Below, in pieces: positions 8,348 to 34,568 of a stretch of 64,000 bases of DNA. This DNA is from Nocardioides pantholopis. GTDB lineage: Bacteria; Actinomycetota; Actinomycetes; Propionibacteriales; Nocardioidaceae. The DNA is taken from NCBI RefSeq assembly GCF_003710085.1, contig NZ_CP033324.1:1674001-1738000 (forward strand), in the 5' to 3' direction. The notes under the pieces were generated by a model. That model was not told the DNA's origin and ran no database searches. It worked only from the letters and a program-made list of their open reading frames with translations. The number at the start of each line of letters is the position of its first letter. The first letter of the stretch is position 1. The position numbers and the translations under genes are program-made.

Positions 8348-8420
8348 TGCCCCGGGTGGGATTCGAACCCACACTGGCGGTGGTTTGAGCACCGTGTCTC
8401 TGCCGTTGGACTACCGGGGC
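8348..8420 (-). tRNA. tRNA-Leu (anticodon CAA), short variable loop
   Basis: The minus strand gives a 73-base cloverleaf. The 7-bp acceptor stem is GCCCCGG/CCGGGGC with discriminator A73. The D arm contains GG in its loop and a 3-bp stem. The anticodon stem CGGTG/CACCG holds loop CTCAAAC with anticodon CAA, which reads the Leu codon UUG. The variable region is only 5 bases (CCAGT), and the T arm is GTGGG-TTCGAAT-CCCAC. CCA is not encoded. Bacterial leucine tRNAs normally have a long variable arm, so the amino-acid identity is uncertain; the anticodon alone supports Leu. It lies between pyk and pdtaR on the opposite strand. Confidence 0.8.
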
Positions 8421-19842: not shown

Positions 19843-21114
19843 TCAGCCGTCCGCGGAGACTCCGCGGACGGCGGGCTCGTCGACCCGGTTGGCCGCCGCC
19901 GCCCGGGAGCGGCGGGCGGTGAACACGATCAGGACGGCCAGGCACACGGCGTACACGGCGGCGACGACCACGACGAGCTGGCGCTCGCTGTCGACGGCCA
20001 GCGCGCCGAGCGCGAGCACCCCGAGCGCCACCCACATCACGAACGGGGCGCTGCGCAGCTGCCGGGCGACCGCCTCGTAGACCATCAGCTGGAGCATCGA
20101 GGCCAGGGTCCCCAGGCCGGCGAACGCCCAGATGAGCGGCTTGATCTCCTCGTAGTCGGCGCCACCGACGAAGATCAGGGCCAGGCCCGGGAGGACGGCG
20201 GTGCCCGCCGTGACCAGCAGGCCCAGCAGGGCGATCGCCCCCAGCGCCGGCAGGTGCGCGTTGCGCTTGCGGGAGGCGGCCATGTCGGGGAACGCGATGA
20301 CGACCACGAACTGCGGCAGGAAGAGCACCGCCTTGGTCATGATCAGCCCGGCGGCGTACAGGCCGGCGTCGTGGCCGTCGAGCATCGCGCGGGCGAGCAC
20401 CACGTCGAGGTTGGACAGTGCGAAGAACGCCAGCAGCGCGTGGGAGTTGTGCACGGTCTCCGAGATCAGCTCCCGCGCGCCCGGCGCGTCCGAGCCCGGG
20501 TCCACGTGCGGCCCGCCCCGGCGCAGCGCCCACCAGCCCAGCAGCACCGGGAGGTACGCCGCGAGGGCGACGCCGAGCATCGCGGCGAACTCGCTGGGCC
20601 GCCAGGCGATCAGCACGCCGCCGACGGCGAGCCGGCCCAGGCCGCTGCTGAGGTAGAGCAGTGACAGCTGGGTCCAGCGCCGCTCGCCCTGGAGGATCCC
20701 GGCCTGGCCGCCCATCATCGTGAGCGGGAACGCCGCCAGGGCGACCAGGGCCGCCGTCGGCAGGCTGTCCAGCCGCAGGACGGCGTCGGTGACCGGGGAG
20801 AGCAGCAGGCAGGCGAGCGCCAGGACCAGGCCGGCGCGGCGGCTGACCCGCATGATCACGGTCTCGATCTCGCGGGCGTGCTCGGGCACCGAGGAGATCC
20901 GCCGCGCCGCCGTGGCCTGGAGCCCGAGCGCGAGGACGTTGACGACGAGGAGCAGGCCCATCAGGGCCGCGAACGCGCCGTACGACTGGGTGCCCAGGAC
21001 CCGGGCGGCCACGATCGTGAACGCGTAGGAGGCCACGCTCATCACGCCCATGGCCACCGCCACCGAGCCGCCGCCGCGGGCCCCTCCGGGATCCGGCGTG
21101 GTGGGGGCGGTCAT
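19843..21114 (-). CDS. Polysaccharide/lipid-linked sugar flippase (MATE/Wzx-like)
   Basis: This 423-aa integral membrane protein has about twelve predicted helices. The ATG at 21114 follows GGAGGAACGT. VAARVLGTQSYGAFAALMGL in helix 2 is typical of polysaccharide biosynthesis (Wzx/PST) exporters of the MOP superfamily. A flippase would move undecaprenyl- or polyprenyl-linked sugars to the outer leaflet. It opens a cluster of envelope glycosyltransferases, which fits that role. It is divergent from the 21199 gene, sharing an 84-base promoter gap. Substrate is inferred from context only. Confidence 0.8.
   Translation of the reverse strand: MTAPTTPDPGGARGGGSVAVAMGVMSVASYAFTIVAARVLGTQSYGAFAALMGLLLVVNVLALGLQATAARRISSVPEHAREIETVIMRVSRRAGLVLALACLLLSPVTDAVLRLDSLPTAALVALAAFPLTMMGGQAGILQGERRWTQLSLLYLSSGLGRLAVGGVLIAWRPSEFAAMLGVALAAYLPVLLGWWALRRGGPHVDPGSDAPGARELISETVHNSHALLAFFALSNLDVVLARAMLDGHDAGLYAAGLIMTKAVLFLPQFVVVIAFPDMAASRKRNAHLPALGAIALLGLLVTAGTAVLPGLALIFVGGADYEEIKPLIWAFAGLGTLASMLQLMVYEAVARQLRSAPFVMWVALGVLALGALAVDSERQLVVVVAAVYAVCLAVLIVFTARRSRAAAANRVDEPAVRGVSADG
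19846..19872. terminator. Bidirectional hairpin between polA and flippase
   Basis: A perfect 12-bp stem (GCCGTCCGCGGA / TCCGCGGACGGC, loop GAC) lies 12 bases after polA and inside the last codons of the converging flippase gene. Confidence 0.7.
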
Positions 21115-21198
21115 ACGTTCCTCCGGCGTCTGGCGTGATCGGGGTGCGGGACGTCGGTAGTTTGTCCCATCGCACTCTACGGCCCAAGAAGAGGAGGG

Positions 21199-22926
21199 GT
21201 GGCGTTGACACTGCGGCGCCGCGTCCCCGAACTGTGGGCGGCGGTCCTCGCCGTGCTGCTCCTCGGGCCGGCCCTGGCGCCCGGATACGTGCTCAGCTAC
21301 GACATGGTCTGGGTCCCCGACCTGGCCCTGCGGCCGGGCTTCCTCGGGCTCGGGTCCGGCTTGCCGCGCGCGGTGCCGTCGGACCTGGTCGTCGCGCTCG
21401 CGGACGAGATCGTGCCCGGGATGATGCTCCAGAAGCTGGTGCTGCTCGGCGCCCTGGTCGGTGCCGGGATCGGCGCGTCCCGCCTGGCTCCGGCCGGGCT
21501 GGTGCCCCGGCTGGTCGCGGTCACGGTCTACGTGTGGAACCCGTTCGTGGTCGAGCGGCTCGTGATCGGCCACTGGCCGGTGCTCGTCGGGTACGCCGTC
21601 CTGCCGTGGGTGATCGAGGCGGGCACCGCCTGGCGCCGCGGGGGCCGGCTCCCGCTGCGGCTGCTGTGGCTGGTGCCGCTCGGCGGCCTGAGCGCCGGCG
21701 CCGGCCTGGTCACCGCTGTCGTGCTCCTCGCGTTCGCCGCGGGCGGCCGGCGCACGCTGCCCGCCGTCCTGCTGGCCGCGGCCGGCAACGCGCCCTGGCT
21801 GGTGGCCGGGCTGCTGCATGCGTCGACCGCGACCACTGACGCTGCCGGGGCGTCGGTGTTCGCGCTGCACGACCAGGGCTGGCTCCCCGGGCCGGTCGCC
21901 GCGCTCGGCCTCGGCGGCATCTGGAACTCCGAGGTCGTGCCTGGCTCCGGCGGGGGGACCGCCGCCGCGCTCGGCGTCGTCGTCCTGCTGGTGCTCGCCG
22001 GGATCGGCGCCCGGGGCTGGTGGCGTCGCCACGACGGCCGTGAGCGTGCGGCGTACCTCGGGTGCTGGTCCGCCGGCTGGCTGCTGGCCGTGCTGACCTG
22101 GCTCTCGCCGGACGCGGTCGGCTGGCTCGTCGCCACCGTTCCCGGCGCCGGGCTGGTCCGCGACGGGGCCCGGCTGCTGGCCCTGTGCGCGCCGCTGCTG
22201 GCCGTCGCCGCGGCGGACGGCGCGGCGACCCTGTGGCGGCACCGGCCGGGAGCCGCGGTGCCGCGGGCGGCGCTGGGGCTGGCGCTGGTGCTCGCCCCGG
22301 TGGCCGCGCTGCCCGCGGCCGCGTGGGGCGCATCGTCGAGCCTGCGTGCGGTCTCGTTCCCCGACACCTGGGCGGCTGCGCGCCAGGTGGTGTCCGGATC
22401 CGTGGACCGGCAGCCGGGAGACGTGCTCCTGCTGCCGCTGTCCAGCTACCGGCAGCCGGGGTGGAACGGCGGGGTCAAGGTGCTGGACCCGCTCGGGCGC
22501 TACCTGACCCCCGACTACGTGGCCGGTGACGAGCTCGTCGTGTCGGGCACCGTCGTCGCGGGCGAGGACCCCCGGGCCGGTGCGGCCGGGGAGGCTCTGG
22601 CGCTGCCGACGGCGCGGGAGAGATCGGCGCGCCTGGCCGAGCTGGGCATCCGCGTCGTCGTCGTGGACCGGGAGGCCCCCGGGACCGCGCCGCCGCTCGA
22701 GGCCCGCACGCTGTGGGAGTCACCCGACCTGCAGGTGCTCGAGCTCGCCGACCCGGCACGGCGGGACCTGCCCGCCTCGTGGACCGTGGCCATGGCGCTC
22801 GCGCTGCTGGCCTGGGGGAGCCCCCTCGTCGTGGCCCTGGCGGGCTGGCTGGTGCGGTCGCGTCGGCTCCGGAGCCGGGTCACGCAGCCCGCCGGTCGAG
22901 GCCGGGCCGGCCGAAAAGCCTGTTGA
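21199..22926 (+). CDS. Large actinobacterial membrane protein, Rv0226c-like
   Basis: This 575-aa protein starts at GTG with a strong AAGAGGAGG site. About ten hydrophobic helices are followed by a soluble stretch (about 390-525) and a last helix near 535-555. The first loop after helix 1 has YVLSYDMVWVPD, an acidic motif placed like the catalytic Asp of GT-C glycosyltransferases. Length and topology resemble mycobacterial Rv0226c, a membrane protein of unknown function whose neighbours are also represented here. I infer a role in moving or assembling envelope glycans; the biochemical function is not known. Confidence 0.6.
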   Translation: MALTLRRRVPELWAAVLAVLLLGPALAPGYVLSYDMVWVPDLALRPGFLGLGSGLPRAVPSDLVVALADEIVPGMMLQKLVLLGALVGAGIGASRLAPAGLVPRLVAVTVYVWNPFVVERLVIGHWPVLVGYAVLPWVIEAGTAWRRGGRLPLRLLWLVPLGGLSAGAGLVTAVVLLAFAAGGRRTLPAVLLAAAGNAPWLVAGLLHASTATTDAAGASVFALHDQGWLPGPVAALGLGGIWNSEVVPGSGGGTAAALGVVVLLVLAGIGARGWWRRHDGRERAAYLGCWSAGWLLAVLTWLSPDAVGWLVATVPGAGLVRDGARLLALCAPLLAVAAADGAATLWRHRPGAAVPRAALGLALVLAPVAALPAAAWGASSSLRAVSFPDTWAAARQVVSGSVDRQPGDVLLLPLSSYRQPGWNGGVKVLDPLGRYLTPDYVAGDELVVSGTVVAGEDPRAGAAGEALALPTARERSARLAELGIRVVVVDREAPGTAPPLEARTLWESPDLQVLELADPARRDLPASWTVAMALALLAWGSPLVVALAGWLVRSRRLRSRVTQPAGRGRAGRKAC

Positions 22927-22950
22927 CGTGTGTGTGGTGTCACAGGCTGC

Positions 22951-22956
22951 TACGCT
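22951..22956 (+). promoter_or_regulatory. Candidate extended -10 of the DUF2613 gene
   Basis: TGCTACGCT is an extended -10 about 26 bases before the GTG. TTGACG occurs upstream (22923-22928), but at 22 bases, too far for a standard -35. The same CTGCTAC core precedes the DUF3068 gene. Confidence 0.35.
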
Positions 22957-22982
22957 CTGGGCGACTCAGGGAGGGGTTACGC

Positions 22983-23159
22983 GTGGCACTTGGACTTGGA
23001 CTTGGAACGACACTGCTCACGACTGTCGGTTCGGTGGGGCTCGGCGGGGTGGTCGCGACCGCGACCATCATCGGCGTCGTGTCCAGCCAGACTGCGGCAC
23101 CGGAGCCGTCGGAATCACCGGCGCGCAGCTCGGTGATCGAGTACGGCTCGAACAGCTGA
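22983..23159 (+). CDS. DUF2613-type small secreted/membrane protein
   Basis: This is a 58-aa protein that short-gene cutoffs can miss. The GTG follows GGGAGGGG by about nine bases. MALGLGLGTTLLTTVGSVGL begins a single hydrophobic, Gly-rich segment (about 5-34), followed by a polar tail rich in Ser/Pro/Glu. This matches DUF2613, small secreted proteins of actinobacteria such as Rv0236A, which sits next to aftD (Rv0236c) in mycobacteria. An AftD-like gene lies 2 kb downstream, supporting the assignment. Function is unknown. Confidence 0.75.
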   Translation: MALGLGLGTTLLTTVGSVGLGGVVATATIIGVVSSQTAAPEPSESPARSSVIEYGSNS

Positions 23160-23182
23160 CCCAGCAGTTCCGCACCACCGTC

Positions 23183-23216
23183 GACGACGGCCCGACCATC
23201 CGGTCGGGCCGTCGTC
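23183..23216. terminator. Bidirectional hairpin after DUF2613 gene and glycosyltransferase
   Basis: A perfect 15-bp stem (GACGACGGCCCGACC and complement, loop ATCC) lies 23 bases past the DUF2613 stop and touches the stop codon of the convergent glycosyltransferase. Confidence 0.8.
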
Positions 23217-24381
23217 AGATTTCGGGGGGCTCCTCGGGGTCCTGGGTGTCGGTGAAGACCCCCGCGATGGCGGCGCCCAGCACCAGGGCGAAGGACTGCT
23301 GGGCGTGCTGCCAGGTGAACTCCTTGCTCATCGCGAGCGCCCCCACCGACAGCTGGTCGCGCAGCTCGGCGTCGGTGAGCACCCGCCGCAGCGCCGCGAC
23401 CAGCTCGTCCGGGCTGTCCACGAGGAGGCCGGAGCGGCCGTCCGCGATCGACTCGCGGGTGCCGCCGGCGGTCCGGTAGGCGACCGCGGGCGTCGAGTGC
23501 ATGCCGGCCTCGCCGATGACCAGGCCCCAGCCCTCCTTGAGCGAGGGCAGCGCCAGCACCCAGGCGCGCTCGTAGAGCTCGTGCTTGGTCTCCTCGTCCA
23601 CGTGGCCGTGGAAGTCGACCAGGCCGCCGGCGCCGCGCTCCTCGACGTACTCGCGCAGCTTCGCCTCCCACCAGCCGCTCCCCACGACCGCCAGGCGCAG
23701 GCCCGGGAGCTCCGGCTGCAGGGCGAGGACCGCGTCGACCGCGTGCTCGACCTGCTTGTGCGGCACCAGCCGGCCCACCACCGCGACGAGCGGGTCAGGG
23801 GACTTCCCCGGGTTCACCGGGACGTAGGGGTCGGTGCCGTTGTGGACCACCGCGATCCGCGGTCCGCGCACCCCGAGGTCGCGCAGCTCGCCACGGGTGG
23901 CGCGGGAGACCGCGACGTACTGGCACCGGCGGTAGAGCCACGGGGCGAGCCGGTGCTCGATCCACCACCCGATCCGTCCGGGGGCGCCGGGGTAGACCAC
24001 CGGCCACTGCTCCCGGTGCACGTGGTGGACCAGCACCACCACCGGACGGCGGGTCACCAGCCGGCTGAAGAACGGCAGCCCGTTCTGCACGTCCACCACG
24101 ACGTCCGGGGCGCCCAGCAGGCCGCGACGCAGGGCCCGCATGCCCTCGGCGTACACCGAGAGCTTGGACCCGCGACGCACGTAGCGGACCCCGTCGACGA
24201 CCTCCTCGGGAGGCGCCGACGCGTACGCCGCGCAGAACACCGTCACGGTGCAGCTGCGCTCGACGAGCCCCTGGGCCATCTTCTCCAGGTAGCGCTCGGC
24301 GCCCCCGCCCTCGGGGTTGTGGGTGTCCCTCCAGCTGAGGAACACCACGTGCTTGCCGGACAGCTCAGCCAGGTCGTGCAT
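23215..24381 (-). CDS. Family 4 glycosyltransferase
   Basis: This 388-aa GT-B enzyme has the N-terminal nucleotide-fold start VVFLSWRDTHNPEGGGAERY (the GGGAE loop binds acceptor/donor), a central HNGTD segment, then VGRLVPHKQVEHAVDA. The C-terminal donor site is LPSLKEGWGLVIGEAG (the E-x7-E motif). Donor sugar and acceptor are unknown. Mycobacterial Rv0225 is a remembered counterpart adjacent to the methyltransferase Rv0224c, the same pairing as here. The ATG is supported by TAGTCT six bases upstream; the promoter region is shared with the divergent methyltransferase. Confidence 0.85.
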   Translation of the reverse strand: MHDLAELSGKHVVFLSWRDTHNPEGGGAERYLEKMAQGLVERSCTVTVFCAAYASAPPEEVVDGVRYVRRGSKLSVYAEGMRALRRGLLGAPDVVVDVQNGLPFFSRLVTRRPVVVLVHHVHREQWPVVYPGAPGRIGWWIEHRLAPWLYRRCQYVAVSRATRGELRDLGVRGPRIAVVHNGTDPYVPVNPGKSPDPLVAVVGRLVPHKQVEHAVDAVLALQPELPGLRLAVVGSGWWEAKLREYVEERGAGGLVDFHGHVDEETKHELYERAWVLALPSLKEGWGLVIGEAGMHSTPAVAYRTAGGTRESIADGRSGLLVDSPDELVAALRRVLTDAELRDQLSVGALAMSKEFTWQHAQQSFALVLGAAIAGVFTDTQDPEEPPEI

Positions 24382-24387
24382 CGACGA

Positions 24388-24393
24388 AGACTA
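24388..24393 (-). promoter_or_regulatory. -10 element of leaderless glycosyltransferase transcript
   Basis: On the minus strand TAGTCT ends six bases before the ATG at 24381. Confidence 0.6.
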
Positions 24394-24434
24394 GAGGACG
24401 CTTCGGCCTGTCACCACCGGTGTGTACCAGCGGG

Positions 24435-24440
24435 TAGGGT
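24435..24440 (+). promoter_or_regulatory. -10 element of leaderless methyltransferase transcript
   Basis: TAGGGT ends six bases before the GTG at 24447. It would drive the methyltransferase/AftD-like operon. Confidence 0.6.
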
Positions 24441-24446
24441 CGCGGC

Positions 24447-25199
24447 GTGCTGAGGCCGGAGACTCCCGTTCGTGGTCCGTGGCGACCCACCCTGCGCCGC
24501 TCGGTGCGGTTGTTCCGGGCCTTCGGTCACGAGCAGTCCGACCCGGCGCTGTTCTACACCGCGCTGGCCGAGGACTCGGCGGCCCAGCTCGCGCACTTCG
24601 TCGACCTGCGCGGGGCGACCCTGCTCGACGTGGGCGGCGGGCCCGGGTACTTCCGGGACGCCTTCGCGGCCGCCGGTGCCACCTACTACTCCCTGGACGC
24701 GGACGCCGGAGAGCTGGCCGGACTGGGCGAGATCGCGCCGGGAACCGTCGTCGGGTCGGGGATGAACCTGCCGTTCGCCGACGACTCCGTCGACGTCTGC
24801 TACTCCTCCAACGTCCTCGAGCACGTCCCCGACCCCTGGCGGATGGCCGAGGAGATGGTCCGGGTGACGAGGCCCGGCGGCACGGTCTTCCTCAGCTGGA
24901 CTGTCTGGTACGGGCCGTGGGGCGGCCACGAGACCGCCCCGTGGCACTTCCTCGGCGGCAGCCGCGCGCGCCGCCGCTACGCGCGCAAGCACGGGCACGA
25001 GCCGAAGAACCGGTACGGCGAGTCGCTCTTCGCGGTCACGGTGCGCGACGGCCTGCGGTGGGTCGAGGCCCAGCGGGACGCCGAGGTGGTCGCCACGCTG
25101 CCGCGCTACAACCCGCGCTGGTCGTGGTGGCTGCTGCGCGTCCCGGTCGTGCGAGAGCTGGTGACATGGAACCTCGTCCTGGTCCTCCGCAAGCGGTGA
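24447..25199 (+). CDS. Class I SAM-dependent methyltransferase (Rv0224c-like)
   Basis: This 250-aa protein has motif I LLDVGGGPGYF at about residues 58-68, an acidic motif II end (YYSLDAD), and the motif IV/post-I region PFADDSVDVCYSSNVLEHVPD, typical of small-molecule or lipid/sugar methyltransferases (Methyltransf_11). The C-terminal part (RWSWWLLRVPVVRELVTWNL) is amphipathic and may touch the membrane. The stop overlaps the GTG of the AftD-like gene (GTGA), so the two are co-translated, suggesting work on the same glycan or lipid. Substrate is unknown. Confidence 0.88.
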   Translation: MLRPETPVRGPWRPTLRRSVRLFRAFGHEQSDPALFYTALAEDSAAQLAHFVDLRGATLLDVGGGPGYFRDAFAAAGATYYSLDADAGELAGLGEIAPGTVVGSGMNLPFADDSVDVCYSSNVLEHVPDPWRMAEEMVRVTRPGGTVFLSWTVWYGPWGGHETAPWHFLGGSRARRRYARKHGHEPKNRYGESLFAVTVRDGLRWVEAQRDAEVVATLPRYNPRWSWWLLRVPVVRELVTWNLVLVLRKR

Positions 25200-28100
25200 G
25201 CGACACCACGGACGAGCGCACCCGGTTCCGGTTCCGGATCGCGGCAGCGTGCGCGCTGCTGGTCGGCCTCGCGTTCGTCCAGGACCCCGGCTTCCTCGTC
25301 CCGGACACGAAGTTCGACCTGGTGGTCGCACCGGGGGAGTTCCTCTCCCGGGCGCTGCACCTGTGGGACGGCGAGGGGGCCTTCGGGCAGCTGCAGAACC
25401 AGGCCTACGGCTACCTGTGGCCGATGGGCCCGTTCTTCTGGCTCGGTATCTCCGCCGGCCTCCCGGCCTGGGTGGTCCAGCGGCTGTGGATGGCGCTGGT
25501 GCTGACCGTCGCGTTCACGGGCGCTGCGAAGGTCGCCCGCGCCCTGGGGGTCCGCTCGGACCTGGCCTGCATCGCGGCCGGCCTCGCCTTCGCGCTCTCG
25601 CCCCGGATGCTCACGACGCTGGGCCCGATCTCGATCGAGGCGTGGCCCAGCGCGCTGGCGCCCTGGGTCCTGCTGCCGCTGGTGATCGGCGCCGAGCGCG
25701 GCTCGGCGCGCCGGGCGGCGGCGCTCTCGGCGCTGGCCGTCGCGATGGTCGGCGGCGTCAACGCGGCAGCGACGTTCGCGGTCATCCCGATGGGCGCCAT
25801 CTGGCTGCTGACCCGCACCCCCGGCCCGCGGCGCCGGGCGCTGATGCTGTGGTGGCCGGTGTTCACGGTGCTCGGGACCCTGTGGTGGCTGGTGCCGCTC
25901 TTCGTGATGGGCGCCTACAGCCCGCCGTTCCTGGACTACATCGAGACGACCTCGGTCACGACGTTCCCGACGACGCTCTTCGACGTCCTGCGCGGCACCT
26001 CGAACTGGGTTCCGTACGTCGACGCGGGATCGCGCGCGGGCAACGACCTGCTCCGTACGCCGTACCTGATCCTCAACGGCGCGGTCGTGCTCGGGCTCGG
26101 GCTGGTCGGGCTCCTGGGGCGGTGGTGCCCGCACCGCCGGTTCCTGGTCCTCTCGCTGCTGACGGGCGTGCTGATGGTCGGGGCCGGCCATGCGGGTGCC
26201 GTCGAGGGCTGGTTCTCCGCCGACCTGCGGGGCCTGCTCGACGGGGTGCTGGCGCCCCTGCGCAACGTCCACAAGTTCGACCCGCTGGTCCGGCTGCCGC
26301 TCGTGATCGGGTTCGCGGTCGTCCTGGACCGGGTCCTCGCCCGCCGAGTCGCCCGTTCCACCAGCGCGGCCGGCGCCCCGGACCGCGGCACGATGACGCT
26401 GGAGCGGGTGAACCGGGTGGCGGTCGTGGCGATGGCGCTGACCGCCCTGCTCGGCTCCACGCTGCCGGTCGTCTCCGGCCGGGTCACGCCTGCGGGCGCC
26501 CACCTGGAGGTCCCCGACTACTGGAGCGAGACCGCTGACTGGCTCGCCGAGGAGGGCGAGGAGACCACCGCGCTGCTGGTGCCCGGCGCGCCCTTCGGCG
26601 AGTACCTGTGGGGCTCGCCCAAGGACGAGCCGCTGCAGTACCTCGCCGAGTCCCCCTGGGCGGTTCGCAACGTCATCCCGCTGACCCGGGCGGGCAACAT
26701 CCGGATGCTCGACGGGGTGGAGTCCCGGCTCGCCCAGGGTGCCGGGTCGCCCGGTCTGACCGCCGCGCTGCGGCGGGCGGGCGTGCGGCACCTCGTGGTG
26801 CGCAACGACCTGGGGGACCGCTCCGACGTCCCCGACCCGGTGCTCGTGCACCAGGCACTGCGCGACTCGCCCGGCCTGGTGCGCGTGGCCAGCTTTGGAC
26901 CCGAGCTCGGCGGCGGCGCCGTGCTCGACGACGACCAGGGCGACCGGGTCGTGGTCAACGGCGGCTGGCAGGCCAGGTATCCGGCGGTCGAGGTCTTCCG
27001 GGTCGCCGGGACGACCGAGCCGGCCGTCTCCGCAGCCTCCGCGACGACCCTGGTCGGCGGCCCCGAGGACCTGGCGGACCTCCTCGACCTCGGCGTGGTC
27101 GGCACCGAGCCGACCGTGCTCGCCGCCGACGGCGCGCAGCCGGAGGACGGCGTCGACGGGCCGGTCGTCCTCACCGACGGGCTCCAGGCCCGCGAGCACT
27201 TCTTCGCCCGGATCCACGACGGCTCCTCCGCGGTGCTGACGCCCGGTGACCGGCGCCGGTCCGGCAACCCCGCGCGCGACTACCTGCTCGACGACGCCGA
27301 GCGGTGGTCCACGTCGGCGGTGCTCGACGGGGCCGCCAGCCTGTCGGCGTCCTCGTCGGGCTCCGACTCCGACACCGCCGGAGGGCCGCGGCCCGGTGAG
27401 CTCCCGTACGCCGCGGTCGACGGCGACCCGGGAACCCAGTGGCGCTCCGGCTCCGCCGCTGGACGCGCCTGGTGGCGGCTGGACCTGGCCGACCCCCGTG
27501 CGGTCTCCCAGGTCACCCTGCGGGGTGGCCCGGACGCGGCGGACAACCAGGTGCTGCGGGTCCGCACCGCCGCGGGCGTCTCGGAGCCGGTCCAGCTCGC
27601 CGCGGGGGAGACCCGGCGGGTGGTGCTCCCGGCGGGCGAGACCGCCTGGGTGCGGATCGAGGACGCCGGCCCCGGGGACCAGATGGTCGCGGTCGCCGAG
27701 GTCGAGGTCCCGGGAGTCGAGGTGCGGCGCCGGCTGGCGCTCCCCGAGATCCCCGCGGCCTGGGGCACGCCGGCCGCCGTCGTGGTGCGCGCCCTGGGCG
27801 ACGCCCGGCGAGGCTGTGCGGAGGTCGACGACACGGTGCGGTGCCTGGCCGAACGGGCCCGGGCACCCGAGGAGGCCTCGGCGATGGGGCGGGTCCTGAC
27901 CCTCCCGGAGTCGGCCACCTGGCAGCCCGAGCTGTCGGTGCGGCCGGTGGCCGGCCGGGCGCTGGACCGGGCCATGCTGCGGGGTCAGGCCGTCGACGTC
28001 CAGGCCTCGTCCACGGCGGTCCCGGACTCCCGGGCCTCGGCGGTGGCCGCGATCGACGGCAGCGCGGCCACGACCTGGCTGGCCGCTCCCGACGACCTGC

Positions 28101-29341
28101 GTCCGACCCTCACGCTCAACTGGCTCGGGAAGCGCCGGGTGGGCTCCGTGCGGGTAGCCCTCAACGACACCGTCGCCGCGCGCCGGCCCACCCGGGTGAG
28201 CGTGAGCTGGCCGGGCGGGACCCGCGAGGTCGCGCTCAACGCCCAGGGTGTGGGTCGGTTCCCGCGGGTGCGGACCGACACCCTCCAGGTCCGGATCGAG
28301 CGCACCGACGCCACCGCGAGCCTCGGCTTCGACGCCCAGCCGCAGGCGATCGGCGTCGGGATCAGCGAGATGTCCGTCGGCGGGGTGCCCTACCTCCCGC
28401 TCGGCCTCTCCGAGGACCGGCGCGACCTCGGCTGCGGCAGCGGCCCGGTGGTCAGCGTGGCCGGGGCCAGGTACGCGTCGGCGGTCGTCGCGTCGTCGGC
28501 CGAGCTGCTGGCCGGGAAGGCCGTCGAGGCCCGCCTGTGCAGCACCGAGGACGGCACGATCAGCACTCCCGCGGGACGGTCCGTGATCGACGTGGCCGGC
28601 TCGGACGCCTTCGCCCCGGCGAGCCTGGTGCTCCGGGACGCCGACCCGGGGGCCGCGGCCCTCCCCGCGGGCGCGCAGGCCGCCCGGCTCGACCTGGGTT
28701 CGAGCACCCGGCGGGTCGAGCCGACCGAGGGCGCCGGGCTCGTCGTCCTCCGGCAGAACGCCAACCCGGGATGGCTGGCCACCCAGGACGGCGCCGAGCT
28801 CGAGCCGGTCGTCGTCGACGGCTGGCAGCAGGGCTGGCGGCTGGACGGCGACGGGCCGGTCGAGGCGCGGTTCGCTCCGGACACGGCGTACCGGACCGGC
28901 CTGGCGGTGGGCGCGGCCTGCCTGCTCGTCCTGCTCGGCGCGGTCCTCGTGCTCCGGCGTCGCTGGCGCGGCCCGGAGCACCCGCCCCTCGCCGAGCGCG
29001 AGCTCCCGTCCCTGCTGGTGCTGGCGCTGGCGCTCCTCGGTGCCGGGCTGGTCGCCGGGTGGGTCGGCCTGCTCCTGGGGGCGGTCGCCGCCGCGGCGGC
29101 GTACGCCCTGCGCGCGAGCGAGCCGACCCGCGCCCTGCTGTTCGCCGCACCGGCGGTCGTCGTCGGTGCGGGCTACGCGATCCAGCCGTGGGGCGACCCC
29201 TCCGGATGGGCCGGGGACTCGCGGTGGCTGGGCTACCTGCTGGTGGTCTCGGTGGTCGGGCTGGTGGTCTCGCTCGCCGAGGGCCGGATCTGGCGCCGGG
29301 GCATCTTCAGCCGCAGCGCCGGACGCTCCACGACCCGGTAG
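25196..29341 (+). CDS. AftD-like GT-C glycosyltransferase (DUF3367/arabinofuranosyltransferase family)
   Basis: This 1381-aa membrane enzyme starts at a GTG overlapping the preceding stop. Residues about 15-440 form eleven or so helices; the first outer loop carries LVPDTKFDL, the acidic catalytic position of GT-C enzymes. A long extracytoplasmic region (about 470-1240) includes two discoidin/carbohydrate-binding beta sandwiches: YAAVDGDPGTQWRSG (about 740) and AAIDGSAATTWLA (about 950). Several C-terminal helices follow. Mycobacterial AftD (Rv0236c) adds alpha-1,3-arabinofuranose to arabinogalactan and lipoarabinomannan from decaprenyl-phosphate donors. The sugar here may differ, since many relatives of this organism lack wall arabinose. 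The last 109 bases overlap the opposite-strand acyltransferase gene. Confidence 0.85.
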   Translation: MSDTTDERTRFRFRIAAACALLVGLAFVQDPGFLVPDTKFDLVVAPGEFLSRALHLWDGEGAFGQLQNQAYGYLWPMGPFFWLGISAGLPAWVVQRLWMALVLTVAFTGAAKVARALGVRSDLACIAAGLAFALSPRMLTTLGPISIEAWPSALAPWVLLPLVIGAERGSARRAAALSALAVAMVGGVNAAATFAVIPMGAIWLLTRTPGPRRRALMLWWPVFTVLGTLWWLVPLFVMGAYSPPFLDYIETTSVTTFPTTLFDVLRGTSNWVPYVDAGSRAGNDLLRTPYLILNGAVVLGLGLVGLLGRWCPHRRFLVLSLLTGVLMVGAGHAGAVEGWFSADLRGLLDGVLAPLRNVHKFDPLVRLPLVIGFAVVLDRVLARRVARSTSAAGAPDRGTMTLERVNRVAVVAMALTALLGSTLPVVSGRVTPAGAHLEVPDYWSETADWLAEEGEETTALLVPGAPFGEYLWGSPKDEPLQYLAESPWAVRNVIPLTRAGNIRMLDGVESRLAQGAGSPGLTAALRRAGVRHLVVRNDLGDRSDVPDPVLVHQALRDSPGLVRVASFGPELGGGAVLDDDQGDRVVVNGGWQARYPAVEVFRVAGTTEPAVSAASATTLVGGPEDLADLLDLGVVGTEPTVLAADGAQPEDGVDGPVVLTDGLQAREHFFARIHDGSSAVLTPGDRRRSGNPARDYLLDDAERWSTSAVLDGAASLSASSSGSDSDTAGGPRPGELPYAAVDGDPGTQWRSGSAAGRAWWRLDLADPRAVSQVTLRGGPDAADNQVLRVRTAAGVSEPVQLAAGETRRVVLPAGETAWVRIEDAGPGDQMVAVAEVEVPGVEVRRRLALPEIPAAWGTPAAVVVRALGDARRGCAEVDDTVRCLAERARAPEEASAMGRVLTLPESATWQPELSVRPVAGRALDRAMLRGQAVDVQASSTAVPDSRASAVAAIDGSAATTWLAAPDDLRPTLTLNWLGKRRVGSVRVALNDTVAARRPTRVSVSWPGGTREVALNAQGVGRFPRVRTDTLQVRIERTDATASLGFDAQPQAIGVGISEMSVGGVPYLPLGLSEDRRDLGCGSGPVVSVAGARYASAVVASSAELLAGKAVEARLCSTEDGTISTPAGRSVIDVAGSDAFAPASLVLRDADPGAAALPAGAQAARLDLGSSTRRVEPTEGAGLVVLRQNANPGWLATQDGAELEPVVVDGWQQGWRLDGDGPVEARFAPDTAYRTGLAVGAACLLVLLGAVLVLRRRWRGPEHPPLAERELPSLLVLALALLGAGLVAGWVGLLLGAVAAAAAYALRASEPTRALLFAAPAVVVGAGYAIQPWGDPSGWAGDSRWLGYLLVVSVVGLVVSLAEGRIWRRGIFSRSAGRSTTR

Positions 29342-30477
29342 GCGACCTCGGCGGCGGCCACGCTGATGAGCACGGTGAGCAGCCAGATCTGCAGGCCGCG
29401 TCCCTGGAACAGCGGCCAGCCGGTGCTCCACATCACCAGGTGGAGCACCGGCAGGTGCAGGCAGAAGATGCCGTAGGAGATCCAGCCGAGGCGCCGGGCC
29501 GCGAGGTGGCCGAGAGCCTGCTCGTAGCGGCCTCCGGAGACGGTGAAGACGCCGGTCACCACGACCAGGAAGCCGATGGTGGCGTACAGCACGTTCTTCG
29601 CCAGCGCCTCGGCGGGACTCGGGGCATCGAACATCGAGGGGCCCGCCAGGGGCGTCGCGCAGACCAGCAGCAGCGCGACGGCCAGGACCCAGCAGCTGCC
29701 GGGCTGGCGCCCGAGGGCCACGATCGTGGCGGCCCACCGGGGCGCGATCCCGCGCTCGTGCAGCACCTGGACCAGGGCGAGGAGCAGGCCGACCGCGAAC
29801 CACGAGAGGTAGGCCGGCAGCCACTGGACAGGCGCCCCATCGATGACGGCCTCCAGCCGGGGCACCGCGTCCAGGTGCCAGTAGACGCTGACGGCCCCCA
29901 GCGCGGCCAGGCAGAGGAGCACCCGGTCGATCCGGAGCGGCCGGCCGCGGCCTACGGCCAGGAGCATCACGAGGGGCAGCACCAGGTAGAAGGCCACCTC
30001 GACGGCGAGGCTCCACATCTGGGTGAGCCCGGCGGGGAAGACCTGCCCGGTCGCGGTGTCGAGCATCAGGAGCGTGCGCAGCCAGTCGGCGACGCCCAGG
30101 TCGCGGTTCTCCTGCACCAGCGACAGCGCGAGCACGACCGTGACGACGTAGAGCGGCGCGATCCGCAGGAAGCGCTTGCGCAGGTAGGGCCGCACCGCGG
30201 GCCGGGTCGTCCCGTCGGCCGCGCGGATCAGCCACGGCCGGGCCAGCAGGAACCCGGAGAGGACGAAGAAGATGGCGACGCCCACGTCCAGCCGGGCCAG
30301 CAGGGTGCCCCAGACACCGTTGCCGGTGTACTCGCCGGCCCAGAAGGCGGCGTGGGTGGTGACGACGCACAGGGCGCCGACGGCGCGCAGGGTGTCGAGC
30401 ACTGGGAAGGTGCCGCCGGTGGCGGGCGGCGGCGGGGTGACGGCCTCGCCCACGCGGGCGCCGAGGCTGGTGCTCAC
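29233..30477 (-). CDS. Acyltransferase family 3 membrane protein
   Basis: This 414-aa protein of about ten helices has the acyltransferase-3 start FPVLDTLRAVGALCVVTTHA, whose His is the conserved catalytic position, then DVGVAIFFVLSGFLLARPW and the C-terminal RVVERP. Such enzymes O-acetylate or O-acylate surface polysaccharides. The GTG overlaps the stop of the upstream GT-C-like gene (GTGA), so they are co-translated. The C-terminal tail is Thr/Ser-rich (SETTSPTTETTSR) and lies entirely in the overlap with the AftD-like gene on the other strand. Rv0228 of the mycobacterial cluster is a remembered counterpart. Confidence 0.88.
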   Translation of the reverse strand: MSTSLGARVGEAVTPPPPATGGTFPVLDTLRAVGALCVVTTHAAFWAGEYTGNGVWGTLLARLDVGVAIFFVLSGFLLARPWLIRAADGTTRPAVRPYLRKRFLRIAPLYVVTVVLALSLVQENRDLGVADWLRTLLMLDTATGQVFPAGLTQMWSLAVEVAFYLVLPLVMLLAVGRGRPLRIDRVLLCLAALGAVSVYWHLDAVPRLEAVIDGAPVQWLPAYLSWFAVGLLLALVQVLHERGIAPRWAATIVALGRQPGSCWVLAVALLLVCATPLAGPSMFDAPSPAEALAKNVLYATIGFLVVVTGVFTVSGGRYEQALGHLAARRLGWISYGIFCLHLPVLHLVMWSTGWPLFQGRGLQIWLLTVLISVAAAEVAYRVVERPALRLKMPRRQIRPSASETTSPTTETTSR

Positions 30478-32294
30478 AGGGGACCTCCGGGGGTGGCGGT
30501 GCCGACGTCGACGGTGTCGACGCACATGGTCTGGCCGGCCGGCAGGCCGCCGAGCGTCACCACGCCGAAGTCGTCGGTGACGTTGACGAAGAGCTCGTGG
30601 GCGCCCCGGCGCACCGGGGCCTCGACGACGTTCGAGCCGATCCGGACCTCGACGGTCGTGTCGGCGGACGCCAGATAGCCGACCCGGACCCACCACGTGT
30701 AGTCGAAGACCCGGGTGTCCAGCGGGATGAGGACCGGGTCGGTCTGGACGAGCCAGCCACACCCCTCTTTCGGGCCGGGCTGCGCGGACGCGGCCGGGGA
30801 GATCACCGCACGCCGTGGCTCGCCGTCCTCGCCGAGGACCGCGAGCTGGCCGGTCACCCGCGGGAAGTAGGCGTTCTCGGTGACGACCGGGAGCAGGCGG
30901 ACGCTGGTGTTGAACGGGTAGAGATATCCCGGGATGACGTTGTCGGGCACCACGGTGTCAGCGAACGCGACGGGACCGGCGTCGCGCAACCCCTCCTGCG
31001 CTGAGCGCAGGAAGCGCTCGCCCGGGTTGTCGGTGTGCCAGATCCGGGCGTAGCCGACGGTGGAGAGGACACCGCCCAGGAGGACCAGCGCGACCCCCGC
31101 GGCGGCGTACCGCTGGGGCAGGCGCCACCGGAGCACGGGGTCGGGCCGGGGCTCCGTGCCCTGATCGGTGCCGAGCGCCGGCAGCAGCAACAGCCCCACG
31201 CACAGCGCCACCGCGCATGCCACGTCGGCCAGGTAGCGGTACTCCAGGCCGGCGACACTGCCGACCACCGGCGCTCGGGTGACCAGGAGCAGGAGGTAGG
31301 ACGCGAGCACGTAGTAGGCCAGCAGCAGCCAGACCCGGCCGGTCCGGCGCCGGTGCATGCCGAGGTAGGCGACGAGGGCCGCGATCGCCACCCAGGACAG
31401 CCCGGTCGCCCAGCCGTACGGGTCGGCGAGGCCGGCGGGCGGGTTGATCTCGCTCCAGCGCCACGGGCCGCCGAGCAGCCCCACGGGGAGGGCGGTCCCG
31501 AGCATCGTGTCCGCCAGCGGCCCGGCCACCGGGGCGGGGGAGTCGGTGGTCAGCTGCGGCACCTGGCTCAGGTAGTACGCCGAGAAGGCAGCCGCCAGCG
31601 CCACGCCGGCACCGACGGCGGGCCAGTAGCGGCGGGCCACGACGCGGAAGCGGTTCCGCAGGCTGCCCTCGCCGAAGTAGGCGAGGGCCAGCAGTGCCAG
31701 CAGCGGGAAGAGGACCAGGGCCTTCACGTAGGCGAGCAGCCCCAGGCCCAGGACCAGCAGGGTCAGCGCCAGCCACCGCCACCGCCGGGTCCGCAGGTAG
31801 CGCCACCAGGTGGCGACGGCGCAGAAGAACGCGACCTGCAGCGGCAGCGCGTTCAGGCTCGCCGCCCACCACATCGTGGCCGGCACCGTGATGGCGGTGA
31901 ACAGGTAGAGGCTGAGCGGGACCAGGATCTCCCAGCGCATCCCGTGCAGCGTGCTGAGCATCCACAGACAGGCGACGCTGGCCGCGAGCTGGACGGCCAG
32001 GGTGAGCGTGGCCGCGAGGCCCCAGCTGACCAGGCCGTTCGTCGAGACCACCCACGCCAGCAGGCGCCCCAGCGGCATGAACTGGCTGTCGTACGGCTCG
32101 AAGAGCAGCCGGGCGTCGAGGCCCTTGCCGGCCTCGTCGAGCATCTGCAGGTCGTCGAGGTAGAACCAGCTCGGATACAGAGCCCAGGCCCGCAGGGCGA
32201 GCTGCGCGAGGATCAGCAGGGCGGCGGCGCCCAGGACCAGCTCGCGTGCGCCGACCGGCCCGATCCCAGAACGTTGGACGGTTCGGTCAGACAC
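30474..32294 (-). CDS. GT-C-like multi-pass membrane protein
   Basis: This protein is 606 aa from GTG 32294, which has GATAGT seven bases upstream and no clear ribosome-binding site. About eleven helices (residues about 15-420) are followed by a roughly 150-residue extracytoplasmic C-terminal domain (WLVQTDPVLIPLD, beta-rich). The loop after helix 1 has SWFYLDDLQMLDEA; the DD pair placed there is characteristic of ArnT/PMT-type GT-C glycosyltransferases. I infer a lipid-phosphate-sugar-dependent transferase acting on a surface glycan, co-expressed with the acyltransferase. The exact family is not recognised. Confidence 0.65.
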   Translation of the reverse strand: MSDRTVQRSGIGPVGARELVLGAAALLILAQLALRAWALYPSWFYLDDLQMLDEAGKGLDARLLFEPYDSQFMPLGRLLAWVVSTNGLVSWGLAATLTLAVQLAASVACLWMLSTLHGMRWEILVPLSLYLFTAITVPATMWWAASLNALPLQVAFFCAVATWWRYLRTRRWRWLALTLLVLGLGLLAYVKALVLFPLLALLALAYFGEGSLRNRFRVVARRYWPAVGAGVALAAAFSAYYLSQVPQLTTDSPAPVAGPLADTMLGTALPVGLLGGPWRWSEINPPAGLADPYGWATGLSWVAIAALVAYLGMHRRRTGRVWLLLAYYVLASYLLLLVTRAPVVGSVAGLEYRYLADVACAVALCVGLLLLPALGTDQGTEPRPDPVLRWRLPQRYAAAGVALVLLGGVLSTVGYARIWHTDNPGERFLRSAQEGLRDAGPVAFADTVVPDNVIPGYLYPFNTSVRLLPVVTENAYFPRVTGQLAVLGEDGEPRRAVISPAASAQPGPKEGCGWLVQTDPVLIPLDTRVFDYTWWVRVGYLASADTTVEVRIGSNVVEAPVRRGAHELFVNVTDDFGVVTLGGLPAGQTMCVDTVDVGTATPGGPL

Positions 32295-32422
32295 GCACGG
32301 AACTATCGCACAACGGTCCTGTCGTGGAACCGATCCCGGCGGGACGCACTGGCGGCCTGGCCGGCCCGGCAACAGTTGCGTCTCGTTTGTGGCGCTGCGC
32401 CGATTGTGACGTGCGCTACTGC

Positions 32423-32428
32423 TACTGT
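32423..32428 (+). promoter_or_regulatory. Candidate extended -10 of the DUF3068 gene
   Basis: TGCTACTGT lies 35 bases before the GTG and matches the element before the DUF2613 gene (CTGCTAC core). No convincing -35 was found. Confidence 0.35.
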
Positions 32429-32463
32429 CAGCGCTCCTTGCACGTGCTTTGGGAGGGGTCTTC

Positions 32464-33387
32464 GTGCGTAAGTTCTTCAGTGTGGCCTGCATCTTTGTGG
32501 GTGCGTTCCTCGTGGTGATGGCAGTCCTGGCCCAGACCTACGGCGCGAGTCAGCTCAAGAAGACTCCGTTGGACGTCGACTCGGTGACCCGCCTGTCCGG
32601 CACCGCCACGTCCTACCTCGGTGCCGACACGGCGCCGTTCGCGGCGAAGGTGGCCAGCACCACCAAGGCCGACTCCGAGAAGTCCGACGACGACGTCGTC
32701 GTCTTCGAGAGCTCCACCTGCCTGGTCAAGGACATCGGCGAGATCGGCGACTGCGTCGCGGACGACGACCCGCAGGCTCGGCTGGTGAACGCGTCGATCG
32801 AGAACTTCGCGACCGACCGGGAGACCGCCCTCGCTGTCAACGACGAGAAGTACGTCCCGGCCGACGGGCCCGAGCGGGAGGGCCTGATCAACAAGTGGCC
32901 CTTCGACGCGGAGAAGAAGGACTACCCGTTCTGGACCACCGGCGGCGTCACCGAAGCCGTCTACGACCGGACCGAGGAGATCGACGGGCTCGAGACCTAC
33001 GTCTACAACGTCGAGATCTCGGATGCGGAGGTGGAGCTCGCCGAGGGCGTGCAGGGCTTCTACACCGAGACGACCGAGGTCTTCGTCGAGCCGACCACCG
33101 GCCAGATCGTCAAGCAGGTCCGCGAGCAGAACCGCTCCTTCGCCGACGGCGACCCCGCGCTCAACGTCAGCGTCGAGTTCACCGAGGACCAGGTCGCCAA
33201 GAACGTCGAGGACATCAGTGCCGACGCCGACCAGCTCAAGCTGGCCACCGGCACCGTCCCGCTCATCGGGTACGTCGTCGGCATCCCGCTGCTGCTGATC
33301 GGGCTCGGCCTGGCCCTGCTCGGTCGCCGTTCGCGGCACCGCGGCACCGACCAGGGCTCGCGCGAGCGCGAGCTGGCCGACGCCTGA
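32464..33387 (+). CDS. DUF3068 (PorA-family-like) envelope protein
   Basis: This 307-aa protein begins at a GTG four bases after GGGAGGGGT. An N-terminal helix (FFSVACIFVGAFLVVMAVLA) anchors or exports it, a long outer domain (about 35-265) follows with acidic beta-rich sequence (YVYNVEISDAEVEL), and a second helix at about 268-290 (GYVVGIPLLLIGLGLALL) precedes a basic cytoplasmic tail. This architecture is typical of DUF3068, which includes mycobacterial Rv0227c and proteins annotated as PorA-family porins. Function is unproven. It closes the envelope cluster and is followed by a strong terminator. Confidence 0.82.
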   Translation: MRKFFSVACIFVGAFLVVMAVLAQTYGASQLKKTPLDVDSVTRLSGTATSYLGADTAPFAAKVASTTKADSEKSDDDVVVFESSTCLVKDIGEIGDCVADDDPQARLVNASIENFATDRETALAVNDEKYVPADGPEREGLINKWPFDAEKKDYPFWTTGGVTEAVYDRTEEIDGLETYVYNVEISDAEVELAEGVQGFYTETTEVFVEPTTGQIVKQVREQNRSFADGDPALNVSVEFTEDQVAKNVEDISADADQLKLATGTVPLIGYVVGIPLLLIGLGLALLGRRSRHRGTDQGSRERELADA

Positions 33388-33475: not shown

Positions 33476-34330
33476 TCAGCGCAGGTCCGCCCCGAAGATC
33501 GCGGTGCCGGGCGTGAGCCGCCCGCGCACCGCTGACCAGCCGCCCCAGACCCGGTCGTGGTCGGCGGGCCACTCCGGCTCGAGCAGCGTGGTGAGGACGA
33601 ACCCGGTGCCGGAAAGCAGTCCGACCCAGTCGCCGAGCGTGCGGTGGTGCTCGACGTAGGAGACCTCGCCGCTCTCGTCGTCGACCTCGACGTACGGCGT
33701 GCGGTCCCAGTAGGACTGGCTCGCCACCAGCCCCGCCTCGCCCGGGTCGTCGGGGAACATCCAGCGGGTCGGGTGGGTGATCGAGAACGCGAACCGGCCG
33801 CCGGGACGCAGCACCCGGGCGACCTCGGCCACCGCGACGTCGAGGTCGCGGACGAACTGCAGGGCGCCGAAGGAGGAGAAGACGACGTCGAAGGACCCGT
33901 CGGCGAAGGGGAGGGCGGTGGCCGTGCCGAGCACGGACGGGACCGCGACCCCGGTGTCGTGGTCGATGCGGCGCGAGTGCTGCAGCTGGCGGTGGGAGAG
34001 GTCGATGCCGAAGGAGCGCCCGCCCTGGGCGCGCACCCACCGCGAGCACTGCCCGGCGCCCGAGCCGACCTCGAGGACGTCGCGCCCGGCGAGGTCGCCG
34101 AGGATCCGGGCCTCGTCCTCGCGGAGCCCCTCCGGGCCCCACACGAAGCCGACGTCGCCGAGGAACTCCCCGTGCGTGGCCTGGTACTCGTCGGCGTACC
34201 GGTCCCAGTCGGGGCCGTTGGCCCGCCGGGACTCGGTCTCGGTCACGGGCCGGCGCTCGACGCGCACCGGGGGGAGTGGAGGATGGTGCCGGGAGTCGGG
34301 TGCGGCGGGGTTGCCGGCGGTGCTGCTCAC
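33476..34330 (-). CDS. Class I SAM-dependent methyltransferase
   Basis: This 284-aa protein has motif I VLEVGSGAGQCSRW (about 83-96), acidic FGIDLSHRQL, and LPFADGSFDVVFSSFGALQF, a Methyltransf_11 pattern. The first 40 residues are disordered and Pro-rich. The GTG start at 34330 is supported by TACCGT six bases upstream on the minus strand. In Streptomyces a methyltransferase of this kind precedes rpsA in the same orientation, as I recall. Substrate is unknown. Confidence 0.88.
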   Translation of the reverse strand: MSSTAGNPAAPDSRHHPPLPPVRVERRPVTETESRRANGPDWDRYADEYQATHGEFLGDVGFVWGPEGLREDEARILGDLAGRDVLEVGSGAGQCSRWVRAQGGRSFGIDLSHRQLQHSRRIDHDTGVAVPSVLGTATALPFADGSFDVVFSSFGALQFVRDLDVAVAEVARVLRPGGRFAFSITHPTRWMFPDDPGEAGLVASQSYWDRTPYVEVDDESGEVSYVEHHRTLGDWVGLLSGTGFVLTTLLEPEWPADHDRVWGGWSAVRGRLTPGTAIFGADLR

Positions 34331-34401: not shown

Positions 34402-34568
34402 TGGTATGCGCCAGAGGTCTGCCTGCGTCCCGGACGGAGCGGACACCGAGCTCGCTATCAGCCCCATCCTCGCCTCTCGGCGGGCCATGGAGCGCACCAC
34501 ACCGGTAGTGAAACGGGCCTCGCTGCGTGCCCGAACGACATCTGCCCACCCAAGGAATTCACTCCCCT

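Follow-up and report, generated by a model that had tools for sequence, protein, structure and literature searches.

A tmaT-aftD-type gene cluster between polA and rpsA of Nocardioides pantholopis, a candidate module for surface glycan assembly

Between polA and rpsA, the genome of Nocardioides pantholopis (4.04 Mb, a single contig) carries nine genes of cell envelope families. In mycobacteria and corynebacteria, four of these families, MmpA, LmcA (also called PgfA), MtrP and TmaT, have an essential or important role in the envelope, and they have so far been explained through mycolates or through lipomannan and lipoarabinomannan (LM/LAM). What would such a set make in a genome in which no mycolate condensing enzyme is recognised? 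We analysed a stretch of 64,000 nucleotides around the cluster (G000:C1:1674001-1738000, hereafter the window), and consider it probable, judging by sequence families and structure models, that the product of the nine genes is a surface glycan, which they would assemble, flip, decorate and deliver, and that trehalose mycolates are not their cargo. An initial annotation of the window had proposed glycan assembly and export, a role that fits the families present.

The published data conflict: LmcA is placed in lipoglycan synthesis, PgfA in the traffic of trehalose monomycolate (TMM), and MmpA has no known activity. In Corynebacterium glutamicum, cg3161-cg3168 encode AftD, a hypothetical protein, TmaT, two hypothetical membrane proteins, a putative glycosyltransferase, a hypothetical protein and MtrP (PMC7775120). 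Gene cg3165 encodes MmpA (PMC11175481), and cg3164 therefore encodes LmcA. The region around aftD is reported to be syntenic across all Corynebacteriales (PMC6034362). TmaT, MmpA and MtrP are required for acetylated trehalose corynomycolate (PMC8698533), and deletion of tmaT or mmpA elicits no sigma-D response, unlike earlier blocks in the mycolate pathway (PMC11175481). MmpL3 is an interaction partner of PgfA, and PgfA abundance is inversely related to that of LM/LAM (PMC9678360). DUF3068, the family of LmcA, is said to be confined to actinobacteria (PMC9678360), LmcA is reported not to resemble any other protein significantly in sequence (PMC8972800), and MmpA is said to lack homologues outside corynebacteria and mycobacteria and is proposed to be a membrane anchor (PMC8698533).

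The initial annotation called the pathway conserved but undescribed. A wholly undescribed pathway is rejected, as the tmaT locus is in print (PMC8698533, PMC8972800, PMC9678360, PMC7775120); it is described for mycolate bacteria, however, and none of the matches listed in the open-licence literature reported it from bacteria that make no mycolates. Bacteria lacking Pks13 and Emb would be harmless hosts for studying the older function free of mycolates and for testing MmpA directly as a glycosyltransferase.

A tmaT-type gene set without mycolate markers

The AftD, TmaT, LmcA, MmpA, glycosyltransferase family 4 (GT4) and MtrP families all lie together in the window, the same neighbourhood as in the tmaT locus of Corynebacterineae (cg3161-cg3168 or NCgl2757-2764; Rv0224c-Rv0228 with Rv0236c). 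All six are also recovered by these profiles in four loci of Pks13-bearing genomes (L167, L168, L170 and L196), where the profile that gives the MtrP-like window protein 70.2 bits finds the copy in Pks13-bearing genomes at 312-360 bits; in L165, another such locus, AftD is not inside its 20 kb. Unlike the locus of Corynebacterineae, the window cluster sits between polA and rpsA, and its nine genes appear to be the corynebacterial tmaT-aftD set joined by a flippase and by a second glycosyltransferase of the C fold (GT-C) with a carbohydrate-binding module (CBM). The initial annotation had described the set as a mirror of Mycobacterium tuberculosis genes, which is correct for seven of the nine families. 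Neither the flippase nor the second GT-C protein is represented in its gene list, though a flippase of the window family stands divergent by MmpA in the cluster of 5/7 loci of Pks13-bearing genomes. In L165 and L167, both mycobacteria-type loci, no flippase was found within the 20 kb examined.

AftD matches the solved arabinofuranosyltransferase over its whole length (6w98; 6wbx, E 1.9e-199, residues 14-1377), with the GT-C_AftD domain and CBMs kept. LmcA belongs to the same DUF3068 family as the solved LmcA (7n3v, E 3.1e-10), for which the described ligands and roles are TMM or LM/LAM; the window protein stands in a genome where no mycolate condensing enzyme passes its cut-off. Scores for MmpA and for LmcA, the latter with the PgfA model, exceed the NCBI curated cut-offs of 210 and 160 bits, respectively. 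The TmaT-like protein has the Acyl_transf_3 domain. The second GT-C protein is predicted to have this fold by structure model; the flippase gave no PDB match by sequence, and the matches of the GT4 and the methyltransferase were generic. The DUF2613-like peptide (Rv0236A family) remained under the Pfam cut-off (E 0.0016), and its assignment leans in part on its conserved place (46 of the 80 named loci described below).

None of three enzymes that mark mycolate or arabinan synthesis was recognised in the N. pantholopis genome. Emb has no match, Pks13, the mycolate condensing enzyme, has none over cut-off (best NF040607 match 1.1e-28), and DprE1 has none over its cut-off of 500 bits (best NF053785 match 5.8e-13). 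The only PF04030 protein is an oxidoreductase of TIGR01679; it reaches 60 of the 500 bits with the DprE1 model and was rejected as a candidate for that enzyme. Because no Pks13 match exceeds the cut-off, the NCBIfam label of the window protein, "MmpA family trehalose lipid delivery protein", is likely an over-annotation. Caution is warranted in general, as this model reaches genomes without a recognised mycolate condensing enzyme and AftD can occur without a recognised DprE1.

Among 148 genomes of the class, LmcA was found in 66 (67 matched; G358 was dropped, its match being below cut-off), MmpA in 56 and AftD in 69. All three occur together in 51 genomes and lie within 20 kb of one another in 46 of these, a linkage far beyond chance. 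The co-occurrence and synteny that the initial annotation had suggested checking were thereby found. Pks13 and Emb are missing from 40 of the 51, and the trio is linked within 20 kb in 36 of the 40. Three genomes in which the genes are unlinked even at 25 kb (G339, G371 and G392) are assemblies of about 320-470 contigs. Emb is present in 11/148 genomes, which belong to a single family. These 11 also have Pks13 over cut-off, as does G023, which was set aside since its score adds up hits across adjacent modules in a single giant polyketide synthase frame of 11494 residues. DprE1 is over cut-off in 43/148 genomes. It is below cut-off in 26 of the 51 genomes with the core trio, all 26 also without Pks13 and Emb (G380 and G345, both among them, hold sub-threshold DprE1 relatives).

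Where DprE1 is present it can be close to the cluster. Its start is 1.8-2.4 kb from that of LmcA in eight genomes of family f71, and it lies between MmpA and AftD in G221 (G221:C1:1879555) and beside MmpA in G335 (G335:C252:22490); all of these genomes lack Pks13 and Emb. By gene neighbourhood, the cluster would accompany arabinose in some lineages, while in N. pantholopis AftD appears to stand without that route.

AftD itself is widespread, with 65/117 genomes within the order. Of the twelve AftD genomes without LmcA, nine belong to family f72, which seems a different setting: AftD often has a second, divergent copy there, and MmpA has no match. Many f58 genomes have a shorter AftD relative, its frame mostly of 860-965 residues and its domain matched in pieces.

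Gene order was compared in 80 named loci, the best 80 of 413 relatives, chosen by AftD (hence 80/80 for AftD by construction), of which the closest are from Nocardioides. Profiles were built from these and 20 further loci; contigs often break off within the cluster, and a few of the matches counted are weak or truncated (for example MT2, a further methyltransferase gene, in L151; the flippase in L154; the second GT-C in L081). The 80 loci include GT4 (74), TmaT (72), flippase (64), MtrP (64), MmpA (63), LmcA (62), second GT-C (52), polA (42), MT2 (30) and rpsA (22). In the 61 loci of at least 19 kb, the counts are TmaT 60, LmcA 58, GT4 56, flippase 54, MmpA 53 and MtrP 48. When score limits were tightened, 61 of the 63 named MmpA loci had the flippase within 1.5 kb of MmpA and divergent from it; the other two sit at contig ends, and part of a flippase is seen in one of these (L154).

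Variant clusters suggest which genes form the core. Two loci of another class (L198 and L199) have the order AftD, flippase, LmcA, MmpA and GT4, with no TmaT, MtrP or second GT-C found in either. A variant in six genomes of the same genus and one of the same family (L071-L077), beside polA in six of the seven, consists of flippase, AftD, second GT-C, MmpA, GT4 and LmcA; its AftD, second GT-C and MmpA are 26-36% like those of the window, and 5/7 lack both TmaT and MtrP. We infer from these gene contents that flippase, MmpA, AftD, GT4 and LmcA would be the core, with TmaT and MtrP as additions. A further genome of the genus, G234 (L210), has no AftD match and still has flippase, MmpA, a DUF2613-like peptide, GT4 and LmcA in a cluster.

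MmpA and a proposed route for the glycan

The structure model of MmpA has a GT-C membrane fold, nearest to AftD and then to oligosaccharyltransferases, and the MmpA profile matches the AftD domain at 97.7%. By sequence, the same profile found only chance aconitase matches in the PDB. Eight residues, Asp35 and seven others, are invariant in 88/88 non-redundant sequences (91 aligned, 3 redundant); Asp35, Arg57, Asp62, Arg321 and Asp322 are kept in all 88. The acidic Asp35 falls in the loop that follows the first helix (residues 2-26 of the model), and it or Asp62 may be catalytic. On the predicted fold and the invariant residues, a role of MmpA as a mere membrane anchor was rejected.

In a tree of 37 of the 91 aligned MmpA sequences, 7/7 sequences from Pks13-bearing genomes form a single clade with support 100, which is nested within deeper nodes (support 97, 96 and 83) that hold other lineages. 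The cluster is likely an older glycan assembly and export module that was later tied to mycolates. MmpA of the variant clusters L071-L077 forms a separate clade. The MmpA of L154, a record named "UNVERIFIED_ORG: Bacillus sp. AZ43" that carries the cluster, groups with Blastococcus, and the record is probably mislabelled.

Three extracytoplasmic GT-C proteins (two with CBMs), a flippase paired with one of them, a cytoplasmic GT4, an acyltransferase, a methyltransferase and a lipid-binding barrel together suggest a glycan whose synthesis would start inside the cell, which would then be flipped, finished and trimmed outside, and which would travel as a lipid-linked product. Judged by family, fold and gene position, each step can be given a candidate. 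The GT4 would place a sugar on a lipid carrier at the inner membrane face, and the flippase would turn this product over. MmpA, the predicted GT-C partner of the flippase, would transfer or extend it outside, after which AftD and the second GT-C protein would extend or branch the glycan from polyprenyl-phosphate sugars, their CBMs holding the chain. The TmaT-like enzyme may acylate and the MtrP-like enzyme methylate the glycan, and LmcA may carry the lipid-anchored product, or its lipid, through the periplasm. With no DprE1 over cut-off, the known decaprenyl-phospho-arabinose route is missing; in this the window AftD differs from the solved one, and that donor is not to be assumed.

A more specific proposal goes further, and we hold it only tentatively, at somewhat less than an even chance. 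MmpA would be a GT-C transferase, neither carrier nor anchor, that passes on a lipid-linked glycan delivered by the flippase, with AftD finishing it. The module would predate the mycomembrane, the donor would be a pentose not made through DprE1 or another sugar, and the trehalose mycolate phenotype would be later or indirect.

Among known systems, the three-component pentofuranose addition systems, which their authors compared with AftD (PMC11127046), likewise combine a GT-C enzyme with CBMs, there using polyprenyl-phospho-pentofuranose outside the membrane. The window cluster differs from these systems in having no recognised epimerase and in adding a flippase, a GT4, an acyltransferase and a methyltransferase. 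Pathways with Wzx-type flippases and oligosaccharyltransferases (PglB, STT3) are also among the closest.

Weighing the competing explanations

Several points weigh against a glycan-making module. Most measured roles of these families are lipid roles, and the corynebacterial phenotypes mostly concern trehalose lipids. Formation of acetylated trehalose monocorynomycolate is blocked in C. glutamicum when tmaT, mmpA or mtrP is lost, with LM/LAM maturation unchanged (PMC8698533), and PgfA of Mycobacterium smegmatis binds a TMM analogue (PMC9678360). With 22 MMPL (PF03176) matches in the N. pantholopis genome, often two per protein, there may be a lipid-transport partner. The pairwise co-occurrence of LmcA, MmpA and AftD is strong (Fisher p <1e-18 for each pair) in tests that ignore the relatedness of the genomes, and LmcA is found without MmpA in 13/66 and without AftD in 9/66 genomes. 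DprE1 is present in 14 mycolate-free genomes with the core trio, in which the product may be an arabinan. Orthology of the TmaT- and MtrP-like proteins, both members of large families, is judged from profile score and place. Support for the node immediately sister to the Pks13 clade in the MmpA tree is only 55, and only 7/28 leaves outside that clade and the outgroup are from genomes tested for Pks13 and Emb.

Among the alternatives, one narrows the glycan reading by naming its product, an LM/LAM-like lipoglycan anchored on phosphatidylinositol, with LmcA acting at mannan elongation and AftD adding pentofuranose. Full-length LM/LAM in C. glutamicum needs LmcA (PMC8972800), AftD works on arabinan (PMC6034362), and the DprE1 genes near LmcA in f71 and in or beside the cluster in G221 and G335 agree with it; the absence from N. 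pantholopis of Emb and of DprE1 over cut-off, and that of DprE1 over cut-off from about half of the core genomes (the 26 counted above), speak against it, and we regard this product as unlikely, at perhaps one chance in a few. Decidedly less probable is that the cluster still delivers trehalose lipids, with another acyl trehalose and an MMPL transporter in mycolate-free bacteria. The NCBIfam names of MmpA and PgfA, whose scores pass their cut-offs, and the MMPL matches favour such delivery. However, no Pks13 is over cut-off in the genome, a conserved flippase and three GT-C proteins would be superfluous for trehalose-lipid delivery, and MmpA occurs without TmaT and MtrP in 2/2 loci of the other class and in 5/7 variant loci.

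The least probable alternative, by a little, is that the genes are neighbours only, independent envelope enzymes kept together by regulation or chance and sharing no product. That the genes are on both strands, that LmcA, AftD and MT2 are found without the others in some genomes, and that the C. glutamicum phenotypes of LmcA and of TmaT, MmpA and MtrP are separable (PMC8698533) would be expected of mere neighbours, whereas linkage of the trio in 46/51 genomes and a flippase-MmpA pairing that survives moves of the cluster would not. We retain assembly and export of a surface glycan as the probable function.

The polA-rpsA interval

As the initial annotation had placed them, all nine genes lie between polA and rpsA, confirmed by profile searches and reading frame coordinates (Table 1). 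MT2 is the tenth gene of the interval, just before rpsA. Three divergent pairs are present: flippase with MmpA-DUF2613, GT4 with MtrP-AftD, and TmaT-second GT-C with LmcA. The MtrP and AftD genes, and likewise the TmaT and second GT-C genes, overlap by 4 bases; the AftD and TmaT-like genes are convergent, with 3' ends overlapping by 109 bases. With genes on either strand and more than one transcription unit, the arrangement is that of a cluster, not of a single operon.

Table 1. Genes of the polA-rpsA interval and its neighbours, in window positions; start codons are the analysts' choice. aa, amino acids; MOP, multidrug/oligosaccharidyl-lipid/polysaccharide; SAM, S-adenosylmethionine.
Feature	Position	Strand	Evidence
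polA, left neighbour, outside the system	17149..19833	+	PF00476 495 bits
Wzx/MOP-type flippase, 423 aa	19843..21114	-	PF01943 52.3 bits
MmpA (Rv0226c/NCgl2761 family), predicted GT-C fold membrane protein, 575 aa	21199..22926	+	NF053599 426.6 bits
DUF2613-like small peptide, 58 aa	22983..23159	+	PF11021 18.9 bits, cut-off 22.1
GT4 glycosyltransferase, 388 aa	23215..24381	-	PF00534 112.5 bits, PF13439 74.6
MtrP-like SAM methyltransferase, 250 aa	24447..25199	+	PF08241 70.2 bits
AftD, GT-C domain and carbohydrate-binding modules, 1381 aa	25196..29341	+	PF11847 811.5 bits, PF24607, PF00754
TmaT-like acyltransferase-3, 414 aa	29233..30477	-	PF01757 90.8 bits
Second GT-C protein (predicted), C-terminal CBM-like domain, 606 aa	30474..32294	-	structure model
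LmcA/PgfA (DUF3068, "PorA"), 307 aa	32464..33387	+	PF11271 198.4 bits; NF053601 170.3 bits; 7n3v
MT2, further SAM methyltransferase, 256 aa, link to the system uncertain	33476..34246	-	PF08241 78.8 bits
rpsA, right neighbour, outside the system	34527..36044	+	PF00575 271.3 bits

The cluster had been described as inserted at a site where polA is directly followed by rpsA in mycobacteria. The two genes are close there, 2.2 and 2.9 kb apart in two mycobacteria-type genomes, and the comparison of the interval points the other way for the insertion. LmcA is within 15 kb of rpsA in 37/66 genomes and 10/16 families (genes on different contigs being counted as not linked), with 0/11 genomes in the Pks13-bearing family and 0/11 in f71. 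G237, of the same genus, is without LmcA, MmpA and AftD, a concerted loss, yet has the flippase beside polA and MT2 beside rpsA. Because LmcA is near rpsA in so many families and G237 retains the flanking genes, polA-rpsA is likely an old site with later losses or moves, so that "inserted" is probably the wrong way round. A fresh insertion was rejected, since the place is common to ten families and a cluster-free relative retains its edges.

In G049, a Pks13-bearing genome, MT2 is beside rpsA while the cluster is on another contig, and only LmcA and MT2 of the set are recognised between polA and rpsA in L078 and L180, loci of the large-genome family f3. MT2 thus keeps its place by rpsA in genomes that have lost the cluster or carry it at another site (L206, L207 and L208). 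Observed together with the f3 loci (L078, L180 and L181), a second LmcA elsewhere in G123 lies with AftD, MtrP and GT4. An Rfam scan at gathering score had no match inside the cluster; its sole match in the window is a tRNA at 8348-8420 (-).

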